Positions 33,023-34,932 of a stretch of DNA of 64,000 nt are shown in pieces (within the stretch, counting starts at the first letter, position 1; each line of letters begins with the position of its first letter). The notes under the pieces were generated by a model that saw only the letters and a list, made by a program, of their open reading frames with translations, did no database searches and was not told the origin of the DNA. The stretch lies in the NCBI RefSeq assembly GCF_041154505.1, contig NZ_AP028672.1:4938501-5002500 (forward strand), in the 5' to 3' direction. A program made the position numbers and the translations under genes. This DNA comes from Acidovorax sp. A79. Its GTDB lineage: Bacteria; Pseudomonadota; Gammaproteobacteria; Burkholderiales; Burkholderiaceae_C.

Positions 33023-33322
33023 TCAGACCATGCTGCCCTGCAGCACCACGTCCGATGTGGGATAGGCCACGCAGGGCAGCACGCAGCCTTCGTCTTTTTC
33101 TTCGGCCGTGAGGCCCGGCCATTCGATGGCGTAGCGCACGGTGCCCTCGGCCAGCTGGCCCATGCAGGTGCGGCAGGTGCCGTTGCGGCAGGAGCTGGGC
33201 CAGTCGATGCCGCCCTGTTCCAGCGACAGCAGCAGCGGCTGCTCGGGCCAGGCGTCGCATTGCTGGCCGCCGGGCTCTACCGTGGCGATGAAGAAGGGCG
33301 CGGTGTTGGGTGGGGTGCTCAT
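33023..33322 (-). CDS. [2Fe-2S] ferredoxin, plant type
   Basis: The 99-residue protein has the CX4CX2C...C cluster motif: Cys45, Cys50 and Cys53 in 'SSCRNGTCRTCMGQL' and Cys84 in 'CVLPC'. It is a small cytoplasmic electron carrier; its partner is not identifiable here. Its ATG at 33322 overlaps the stop of the DUF938 gene (ATGA), so the two are translated as a pair. Confidence 0.9.
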   Translation of the reverse strand: MSTPPNTAPFFIATVEPGGQQCDAWPEQPLLLSLEQGGIDWPSSCRNGTCRTCMGQLAEGTVRYAIEWPGLTAEEKDEGCVLPCVAYPTSDVVLQGSMV

Positions 33323-33984
33323 GGGTGGTGCGTGGTGTCGGGGCGGGCGTCGGGGGCGGGGGTGGCGCGGGTCCACACCAGCAGGAGGTTGTTGGCGGGC
33401 ATCGCATGGCGGGCCGCCAGCCGCAGCCCGGCCCCGGCCGCAACGGCGGCCACGTCGTCGATGCGGCGGATGCCCCAGGCGGCGTCCTGGGCGCGCAGGC
33501 TGGCGTCAAACGCCAGGTTGCCCGCGGCGGTGGGCACGCCGTCTTCCAGGTACGGGCCGTAGGTGACCAGCAGGCCGCCTGGCGCCAGGTGGCGGGCCGC
33601 ACCGCGCATCAGGCCCGCGCAGCACGCCCAGGGCGCGATGTGCAGCATGTTGGCGCAGTAGATCAGGTCGAACGGCTGGCTGAACGCCGGGCCATCGGCG
33701 GGCCAGGCGGGCTGGAGCACGTCGAGCGCCACGGGTGTGCGCACGTTGCGCGCGCCCGTGTGCGCGGCCCAGCCGGCGATGGCGCCGAAGTGCGTTCCCT
33801 GCAGGTCGGTGGGCTGCCAGCTCCAGCCGGGCAGGGCGGCGGCAAAGTGCGCCGCGTGCTGGCCCGTGCCACTGGCGATCTCCAGTGCCGCGCCTTCCGG
33901 CGCCAGCAGGGACTGCAGCACCGCCAGGATGGGGCCCTGGTTGCGTTCGGCGGCGGGACTGTGCGGGAGCGGAGGGTGGGACAT
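33319..33984 (-). CDS. DUF938 SAM-dependent methyltransferase-like protein
   Basis: The 221-residue protein has the SAM-binding motif I 'ALEIASGTGQHAAHFA' near residue 34, and 'DLIYCANMLHIAPW' and 'LLVTYGPYLEDG' as later motifs, the pattern of the DUF938 family. Activity and substrate are not known. It is the first gene of a pair with the ferredoxin and lies next to the 108-bp repeat array. Confidence 0.85.
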   Translation of the reverse strand: MSHPPLPHSPAAERNQGPILAVLQSLLAPEGAALEIASGTGQHAAHFAAALPGWSWQPTDLQGTHFGAIAGWAAHTGARNVRTPVALDVLQPAWPADGPAFSQPFDLIYCANMLHIAPWACCAGLMRGAARHLAPGGLLVTYGPYLEDGVPTAAGNLAFDASLRAQDAAWGIRRIDDVAAVAAGAGLRLAARHAMPANNLLLVWTRATPAPDARPDTTHHP

Positions 33985-34049: not shown

Positions 34050-34103
34050 AGGGGGCGCCGATGGGAACTGTATCGCAGCCGGCGCGTGGCGGGGCAGTGC
34101 CTG

Positions 34104-34211
34104 TTTTTTAAGCGGTGCAAGGATATTCCTTGTAAATCAGGCACTTACCCCCGCCATACAAGGCTTGTCCAGGGTTATCCACATGATTGTCCAGTGCGGG
34201 CAGGGATAACC
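34104..34211 (+). repeat. 108-bp repeat unit 1 with consensus DnaA box
   Basis: The first of three gap-free 108-bp direct repeats. It holds TTATCCACA (34175-34183), the consensus DnaA box, inside an inverted pair GGTTATCC ... GGATAACC that spans the last 38 bp. By hand count it is identical to unit 2 at 88 of 108 positions. No protein-coding frame is convincing on either strand. Confidence 0.9.
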
Positions 34212-34276
34212 GGGGCGGACTGGGGGGTGGCAAGGGGCTGGGCGCGGTGCGCGGAATCCCTGGGCGTGGTTGCCGC

Positions 34277-34384
34277 TTTTTTGGGCAATGCAAGGATATT
34301 TCTTATAAATCAATCACTTAAGGATGTCATACAAGACTTCTCCAAACTTATCCACATGATTGTCCAGTGCGGGCTGGGATAACC
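34277..34384 (+). repeat. 108-bp repeat unit 2 with consensus DnaA box
   Basis: Second unit, 65 bp after unit 1. TTATCCACA is at 34348-34356. The 3' third (ttatccacatgattgtccag through ggataacc) is almost unchanged, while the 5' part differs more, which suggests selection or recent exchange on the DnaA-box end. Confidence 0.9.
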
Positions 34385-34410
34385 GGAGCCAGTGCGGGAT
34401 CGATTGCCTA

Positions 34411-34518
34411 AAAAAGAGGCGTCGCAGGCCTTGGCCTTATGAATCAAGCACTTGGCGCTGCCATACAGGACTTGCCAAAACTTATCCACATGATTGTCCA
34501 GCGCTGGCAGGGATAACC
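34411..34518 (+). repeat. 108-bp repeat unit 3 with consensus DnaA box
   Basis: Third unit, 26 bp after unit 2 and just downstream of the DUF427 stop codon. TTATCCACA is at 34482-34490. Its 5' third is the most diverged (an A-run replaces the T-run), but it still aligns without gaps over 108 bp. Confidence 0.85.
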
Positions 34519-34530
34519 CTGGCCTCCTGG

Positions 34531-34812
34531 TCAGGCGGCGACCTTCACGCCCTTCCAGAACGCCACGCGGCCCCGGATTTCTTCGGCCTCGGGCTTGGGA
34601 TCGGCATAGAACCAGGCGGCGTCGGTGTTCATCTCGCCGTTGACCAGCAGCGACAGGTAGCTGGCCTGGCCCTTCCAGTGGCAGGTGGTCTTGTGGTTGC
34701 TGAAGGTGAAGAACTCGCGCTTGAGCGCGCTTTCGGGAAAGTAGTGGTTGCCTTCGACCACCACGGTGTCGTCGCTCTCGGCGACGACCACGCCGTTCCA
34801 GACTGCTTTCAT
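34531..34812 (-). CDS. DUF427 domain protein
   Basis: The 93-residue protein is a complete DUF427 domain: 'MKAVWNGVVVAESDDTVVVE' at the start, 'YFPESALKREFF', and 'TTCHWKGQASY' in the middle with the conserved Cys-His-Trp-Lys-Gly. Its function is unknown. The ATG at 34812 is preceded by AAGGAAAT. Its stop codon is 12 bp from the 108-bp repeat array. Confidence 0.88.
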   Translation of the reverse strand: MKAVWNGVVVAESDDTVVVEGNHYFPESALKREFFTFSNHKTTCHWKGQASYLSLLVNGEMNTDAAWFYADPKPEAEEIRGRVAFWKGVKVAA

Positions 34813-34932
34813 GGTATTTCCTTTCAATTGAATGCCGCGCAGCGCTTGACGGACAAGCGGTGACCGCGATGAATGTGCGAGCAATGGCCCCACGGGCCTT
34901 GCGGGGCGGCCCGCGCTGGCCAGAATGCGGGC

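Follow-up and report, generated by a model that had tools for sequence, protein, structure and literature searches.

A triple array of IHF sites and DnaA-box cores with DARS-type geometry in Acidovorax sp. A79, a candidate DnaA control locus

DnaA is the protein that starts chromosome copying, and the chromosomal loci DARS and datA are known in detail from Escherichia coli and its close kin. In the MG1655 genome the DARS1 core of E. coli consists of a DnaA box, followed after 5 bp by a box in the opposite direction and, after 3 bp, by another that points the same way as the second; the DARS2 core is built alike. DARS2 also carries two IHF-like sites, 3 bp apart and with one mismatch each, on the box III side, which agree with the IBS1-2 IHF sites described for DARS2 in excerpts of PMC4245941. 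Excerpts of PMC5742627 give the same box spacing for DARS1 and DARS2, with box I opposite to boxes II and III, as a common DARS feature, and an excerpt of PMC10380432 holds the head-to-head box pair to be essential in DARS. As to distribution, the excerpted statements place the DARS2 core specifically in gammaproteobacteria (PMC4245941), DARS2 conservation in some beta or gammaproteobacteria (PMC5742627) and DARS-like sequences in many proteobacteria (PMC10380432). Because DARS2 is already granted to some betaproteobacteria in the excerpted part of PMC5742627, the array described here is not a new kind of site; no description of such an array in Burkholderiales was found in a licence-limited literature search.

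The window, a stretch of 64,000 nucleotides of the Acidovorax sp. A79 genome, contains a tandem array that lies in the non-coding gap between a leftward ORF starting at 33984 and a leftward ORF ending at 34531 (ORF list). An earlier note on this DNA had proposed three gap-free repeat copies with a perfect DnaA box at the same place in each. A repeat search recovered exactly such copies, with units 2 and 3 showing 81% and 71% identity to unit 1, and their extent is better given as 119 nt than as the 108 bp first proposed. The units and the genes on either side are as follows.

33319..33984, minus strand: left neighbour gene, an ORF that we take to be a methyltransferase-like gene; homologue in 3 of 24 other-genus loci
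34098..34216, plus strand: array unit 1 (repeat search; model R1 match of 104.9 bits)
34271..34389, plus strand: array unit 2 (repeat search; model R1 match of 100.3 bits)
34405..34523, plus strand: array unit 3 (repeat search; model R1 match of 95.6 bits)
34531..34893, minus strand: right neighbour gene, an ORF that is presumably DUF427-like; homologue in 30 of 30 Acidovorax and 8 of 24 other-genus loci

The perfect box TTATCCACA occurs three times in the window, each time inside the array, against a shuffle expectation of 0.04. These are three of the 21 perfect DnaA boxes in the 5.87-Mb genome, where the control pattern, the box read backwards, occurs 10 times. No other copy of the unit or of its 20-bp core was found in this genome, the remaining matches being just 14 and 15 bases long; the scattering expected of an ordinary mobile repeat, named beforehand as an outcome that would speak against a DnaA locus, was thus not seen there. 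The window contains no tRNA or tmRNA. Across Acidovorax, 77 distinct units (from 82) align gap-free over 119 columns in alignment A1, and 37 columns are invariant; the units were picked by the pattern of an IHF site, 27 bp and a box, which in part accounts for the invariance of the columns concerned. The sequence-only model R1 found additional units lacking the IHF-box motif pair, one in locus L032 and three in L036. Unit-to-unit distances are nearly constant over 30 Acidovorax loci, at 172-173 bp (184 in two loci) and 134-135 bp; the distance of 286 in one locus arises because its middle unit has no box of the pattern used. Module number varies across loci, with 2, 3 or 4 in tandem. The sequence ATTGTCCAG adjoining the box, which is absent from the earlier note, is nearly invariant in genus units.

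The conserved stretch after the box consists of two further DnaA-like 9-mers, so that each unit reads 9(+)-3-9(+)-5-9(-): TTATCCACA, 3 bp, TTGTCCAGY, 5 bp and an inverted TTATCCC. The strong box occupies core position III.

34175..34183, plus strand: DnaA box, core position III, unit 1 (TTATCCACA; sequence match)
34187..34195, plus strand: DnaA-like site, position II, unit 1 (TTGTCCAGT), 3 bp after III
34201..34209, minus strand: inverted DnaA-like site, position I, unit 1 (TTATCCCTG), 5 bp after II
34348..34356, plus strand: DnaA box III, unit 2 (sequence match)
34360..34368, plus strand: DnaA-like site II, unit 2 (sequence match)
34374..34382, minus strand: inverted DnaA-like site I, unit 2 (sequence match)
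34482..34490, plus strand: DnaA box III, unit 3 (sequence match)
34494..34502, plus strand: DnaA-like site II, unit 3 (sequence match)
34508..34516, minus strand: inverted DnaA-like site I, unit 3 (sequence match)

The DARS core geometry, with gaps of 5 and 3 bp and box I opposite, is present in all three window units and in 77 of 77 distinct genus units. Box III is TTATCCACA in 73 and TTATGCACA in 4 of the 77, the unit-picking pattern having admitted just such boxes. Site II is TTGTCCAGT in 52 units, TTGTCCAGC in 24 and TTGTTCAGT in one, and fits TTGTCCAGY in 76 of 77; site I starts with TTATCC in 76, and the remaining unit has an N. In locus A, sites II and I match a mean of 5.0 and 5.1 of the 8 informative bases of the DnaA consensus, yet they are nearly invariant. 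The note had described box and downstream site as an inverted repeat. TTATCC and GGATAA are indeed kept as two inverted sites, but not as a hairpin stem: the outermost G-C pair occurs in just 37 of 77 units and is absent in 40, the four TTATGCACA boxes break one pair without compensation, and none of seven pairs shows a compensatory change. Because pairs are lost in this uncompensated way, the hairpin reading was dropped.

To relate this spacing to chance, 1.16 Mb of the same genome was scanned for a perfect box, taken as III or as II, accompanied by a tandem and an inverted partner, at a threshold of 18 of 24 informative bases. The DARS gaps (3, 5) gave four sites, while the other 230 of 231 gap combinations gave a mean of 0.11 and a maximum of 2, and 200 shuffles of the window yielded one DARS-geometry site in total. 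The four sites are the three array units and one of the two repeats of a second locus before priA, described below; the array units, being homologous, do not count as separate occurrences of the geometry. Partner offsets were also ranked around the boxes of several sets of loci. At five loci beside xseA in other families, the best two offsets of 24 boxes are -12 in the same direction and +14 inverted, which are those of E. coli DARS box II, and this pattern lends the DARS geometry support that is independent of the array. The same two offsets rank 2nd and 4th at the priA locus (40 boxes). Where III is the strong box, the expected offsets are +26 inverted and +12 same; these rank 4th and 5th of 148 in Acidovorax locus A (71 boxes), where -10 same, -44 inverted and -9 inverted outscore them, and 2nd and 4th in other genera of the family (38 boxes); in family f21 (5 boxes) +26 ranks first and +12 falls outside the best seven.

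A blind count of the gap between TTATCCACA and a downstream GGATAA, over distances of 3 to 33 bases, found 88 places in 250 family genomes: 26 with gap 8, 49 with gap 20 and 13 with all others. DARS geometry predicts gap 8 (II to I) and gap 20 (III to I), with which 75 of the 88 places agree; many gap-20 places are homologous arrays, and the gap-8 places are spread over 21 genomes. Outside this family (f1), with palindromic places on both strands counted once, the 102 matches listed include 33 with gap 8, 15 with gap 20, 13 with gap 9 and 9 with gap 21, and the gap-9/gap-21 class recurs in some other families. The backward-pattern control gave 0 places in family genomes and 5 among the order-genome matches listed.

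Each unit carries upstream of its core an IHF consensus site, which the note does not mention, and, farther out, a Fis-like element.

34099..34113, no strand assigned: Fis-like element, unit 1 (G-N13-C with an A/T-rich centre; resemblance only)
34135..34147, plus strand: IHF consensus site, unit 1 (WATCARNNNNTTR; pattern match), 40 bp upstream of the box
34155..34160, 34328-34333 and 34462-34467, plus strand: CATACA motif (A1 columns 58-63, each 90-100% conserved)
34272..34286, no strand assigned: Fis-like element, unit 2 (as unit 1; resemblance only)
34308..34320, plus strand: IHF consensus site, unit 2 (matches WATCAANNNNTTR; pattern match)
34406..34420, no strand assigned: Fis-like element, unit 3 (as unit 1; resemblance only)
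34442..34454, plus strand: IHF consensus site, unit 3 (matches WATCAANNNNTTR; pattern match)

The window has just one IHF consensus match besides these three, with 0.47 expected overall, and an IHF site followed after 27 bp by a perfect box is seen three times in the array and in 0 of 100 shuffles. When the spacing was retested free of the A1 pattern selection, in 30 loci of 30 Acidovorax genomes (two of one species), all 78 perfect boxes had the IHF consensus at exactly 40 bp upstream and at none of the other spacings from 30 to 50; the four TTATGCACA boxes carry it at 40 bp too. In Acidovorax the IHF site thus stands on the box III side of the core. The CATACA motif is nearly invariant in genus units and corresponds to no DnaA, IHF or Fis pattern that was applied. 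Where the IHF site begins, it shares bases with a weakly DnaA-like 9-mer in inverted orientation (TGATTTACA, TGATTCATA; minus strand, window positions 34131-34139 and 34438-34446), an offset that is among the best-scoring in locus A; judging by this overlap, DnaA and IHF could be set in competition. The 15-bp Fis-like element beyond the IHF site starts with G, ends with C and has an A/T-rich centre in all 77 genus units and all 49 gap-free other-genus units. The Fis pattern given in an excerpt of PMC4245941 matches 14 of 77 and 9 of 49 of these units, and a looser pattern 47 of 77 and 21 of 49. Searches by tblastn found no fis, ihfA or ihfB in 1.44 Mb of the A79 genome, overlaps included, and no fis in the locus sequences. 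A search with the E. coli Fis protein returned 1155 proteins; the 120 listed are all close relatives, and those named by organism are gammaproteobacteria.

Among the described sites, DARS2 (MG1655 core 2969135-2969169, with IHF-like sites up to 2969256) is the one whose component order the array follows. Both have three 9-mers with gaps of 5 and 3 bp in the same orientations, IHF on the box III side and an intergenic place; where DARS2 has a Fis site beyond IHF, the array has an element that resembles one. They differ in that DARS2 is one core and the Acidovorax array three tandem modules, in their surrounding genes, and in the gap from IHF to III, which is 27 bp in Acidovorax and 58 and 74 bp for the E. 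coli candidates, with one mismatch each. The strong box is III in the Acidovorax array, whereas it is II in E. coli DARS1 and DARS2. DARS1 (MG1655 813107-813141, between bioD and uvrB) has the core geometry in common with the array, and its relative distance from the origin, 0.66, is similar to the 0.59-0.71 of 8 of 12 Acidovorax chromosomes; unlike the array, with IHF in each of three units, it has one core and no IHF consensus.

The array is present in 42 of 47 Acidovorax genomes. Sequence matches occur in 43, of which G008 with its 26-bp match was left out, and the 42 include partial matches in G001 (83 bp) and G033 (53 bp at a contig edge). A DUF427 homologue adjoins the array in 30 of 30 Acidovorax loci, so synteny is kept in the loci checked. 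A search of the wider family gave matches to model R1 at an E value of 0.01 in 175 of 399 genomes and 79 of 141 genera, leaving 224 of 399 genomes without a match; model R2 matched 40 of 399 order genomes at an E value of 0.001, most of them weakly, and 359 had none. In loci extending about 1.5 kb to each side of the array, the most constant neighbour in other genera is a homologue of a ferredoxin-like gene (21 of 24 loci). Extra or alternative arrays stand beside a PcaR-type regulator and RND efflux genes (g19), DedA/thiamine-transport, YgiQ or LysR-type genes (g40), trpB/P-II (g73), acnB (f21), xseA in seven loci of f8 and f32 (xseA homologue confirmed) and, as a weak match, priA/hemE in f25. 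The occurrence of the module beside unrelated genes in various relatives indicates that it is not tied to one gene.

The remark in the note that no dnaA is nearby is borne out by a distance of 2.01 Mb between dnaA and the array. Measured from dnaA and given as a fraction of the half-chromosome, the place of the array is 0.587-0.705 for 8 of 12 Acidovorax chromosomes and 0.878-0.952 for the other 4 (four of the 12 values are 0.587, 0.878, 0.883 and 0.889); in 17 chromosomes of other genera the array is found at 0.60-0.94 of the arm. It stands clockwise of dnaA in three and counter-clockwise in five of eight chromosomes. Because the locus is inherited in synteny, this position is no proof of selection on distance. 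Computed in the same way from the E. coli oriC coordinate, E. coli DARS1 lies at 0.659, DARS2 at 0.412 and datA at 0.201. In one genome (G028:C1:848626, locus L023) the array lies at 0.95 of the arm with its unit strand against replication, an orientation that sets it apart from the seven other chromosomes compared for strand. Sampled GC skew in A79 switches sign near 2.8-3.05 Mb, with a cumulative minimum at about 3.02 Mb in the 300 kb examined; the array, at 4.97 Mb, is not at this switch. A region 67 kb from dnaA (L042 4200-5000; G000:C1:3028438-3028970), which holds two repeats with an AT-rich stretch, GTAGTAGTAG runs and three perfect DnaA boxes, lies near the lowest cumulative skew of those 300 kb, and by its sequence it is probably oriC. 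It adjoins a gene that is presumably rdgC-like; dnaA itself has a single upstream TTATCCACA.

The sequence and anatomy of the array, its geometry, conservation, uniqueness and position are direct observations, and they lead us to propose that it is probably (at roughly 0.62) a cis-acting, IHF-dependent DnaA control site of the DARS type, in which one module of IHF site plus core is tandemly repeated three times. We favour this reading because of the core geometry, the IHF site at 40 bp, its place on the box III side, the single genomic place and the genus-wide synteny. Of the functions that the note had offered, DnaA reactivation is the one that finds support, box geometry, IHF site and component order matching DARS2, while an origin remnant and small RNAs find none. 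From the E. coli systems we infer DnaA and IHF binding, ADP exchange and an effect on initiation. IHF would bind and sharply bend each unit upstream of the core. ADP-DnaA would occupy strong box III, and a neighbouring DnaA the weak tandem site II at a distance of 3 bp. After another 5 bp, on inverted site I, a further DnaA would face this neighbour head to head, the kind of contact by which DnaA is made to release ADP in E. coli. The freed apo-DnaA could then take up ATP, raising the initiation potential at oriC, and the three units would multiply the output of a late-replicated locus in the terminus-proximal part of the arm. Several observations count against the DARS reading: the matches at sites II and I are poor, the strong box stands at III rather than II, other offsets score better, and the array has a likeness to datA. 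More than half of the family genomes are unmatched by R1 and most order genomes by R2, and gaps of 9 and 21 occur in other families; ihfA, ihfB and fis were not found in 1.44 Mb, and the position is 0.88-0.95 in 4 of 12 chromosomes.

The likeness to datA, which in E. coli lies between glyY and queG, bears on a role opposite in sign, in which IHF bending between same-direction boxes would build an ATP-DnaA oligomer, ATP would be hydrolysed and initiation lowered. The perfect boxes of the array all point one way, an IHF site stands between successive ones and weak tandem sites follow them, as datA is described in an excerpt of PMC5742627. Compared with datA, however, the array has its IHF site on the opposite strand with respect to the boxes and at another spacing; datA is a single unit, and no datA function has been described for an inverted site such as the one conserved here at DARS spacing. 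E. coli datA is also close to oriC (0.20 of the arm), whereas the array is not origin-proximal, lying at 0.587-0.952 in 12 Acidovorax chromosomes, and the priA locus, at 0.19-0.25, suits a datA role better by position; we therefore regard inactivation by the array as unlikely. Pure titration, by which the array would soak up free DnaA and leave its nucleotide unchanged, could draw on a high-affinity cluster of three of the genome's 21 perfect boxes, and a section heading of PMC12371093 credits DARS1, DARS2 and datA with a large part of the titration power of E. coli. Titration needs neither a fixed IHF spacing nor an exactly spaced inverted partner, both of which the array conserves, and a late-replicated place is poorly suited to it, which makes it quite unlikely as the sole function.

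The array lies upstream of leftward genes, one neighbour, the ferredoxin-like gene, is constant in 21 of 24 other-genus loci, and DnaA and IHF might accordingly control the transcription of an adjacent gene. The methyltransferase gene is found in only 3 and the DUF427 gene in 8 of the 24 loci, the module stands beside unrelated genes elsewhere, and a scan for sigma-70-type promoters, which leaves other promoter types outside its scope, gave no such pattern. Because neighbours change while the array stays, regulation of a single neighbour is very unlikely. Tandem, conserved, non-coding units would also be expected of repeated small RNAs. A structured RNA was rejected, and we give it hardly any credence: Rfam gave no match, RNAalifold returned 6 pairs of which 0 covary, box substitutions break the putative stem uncompensated, and no promoter or terminator pattern was seen. 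Tandem perfect DnaA boxes could also mark the remnant of an origin, or a plasmid or mobile origin carried as a repeat. The array occupies a single genomic place, has 0 matches in 72,556 plasmid records and is accompanied by one and the same gene in 30 of 30 Acidovorax loci, and the chromosomal oriC is likely elsewhere, so that this explanation too is exceedingly improbable.

A second DnaA/IHF locus lies between nuoB and priA (L043 4405-4990; G000:C1:2359379-2360119). It has four consensus boxes in two repeats (TTATGCACA and TTATCCACA, twice), and in each repeat TTATCCACA is joined by weak partners with the DARS gaps and followed 39-41 bp downstream by an IHF site. Matches occur in 46 of 47 Acidovorax genomes, the match in G008 being just the last 48 query bases, toward priA; all four boxes are present in 19 of 20 loci, and the twentieth, at a contig end, shows three. 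Its place along the arm is 0.193-0.247 in 12 of 12 chromosomes, with a mean of 0.225. It makes a natural partner for the array and may act as the inactivating member. We tentatively suggest, as a possibility that is itself doubtful, a two-way DnaA nucleotide cycle through chromosomal loci in Burkholderiales, in which the origin-proximal priA locus (0.19-0.25, near the 0.20 of E. coli datA) would inactivate and the origin-distal triple array reactivate DnaA, module copy number (2, 3 or 4) would act as an evolvable gain control, and DARS cores would date to the ancestor of beta- and gammaproteobacteria.

DARS-like sites are hardly known in this group, and the array makes replication control testable there. 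If the DARS reading is true, DnaA reactivation at chromosomal sites would be a wider strategy than that of E. coli and its kin, and the natural series of two to four modules would allow dosage models of initiation timing to be tested. The rule TTATCCACA, 8 or 20 bases, GGATAA can serve to search for such loci in other bacteria. One family genome (L255; G108:C5:168783-168817) has two perfect boxes and an inverted TTATCCACT at the exact DARS spacing with no IHF consensus within 400 bp, and is in this respect DARS1-like. The xseA multi-core arrays (L139-L147 and L153; f8, f32) often have a full DnaA box as their upstream site, for example TTGTGCACA-3-TTATCCACA-5-inverted, and are nearer to E. coli DARS than the Acidovorax units are. 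At gap-8 places in many Burkholderiales, near-perfect head-to-head pairs of the form TTATCCACA-5 bp-TGTGGATAA are found (e.g. G285:C2:592434-592456).
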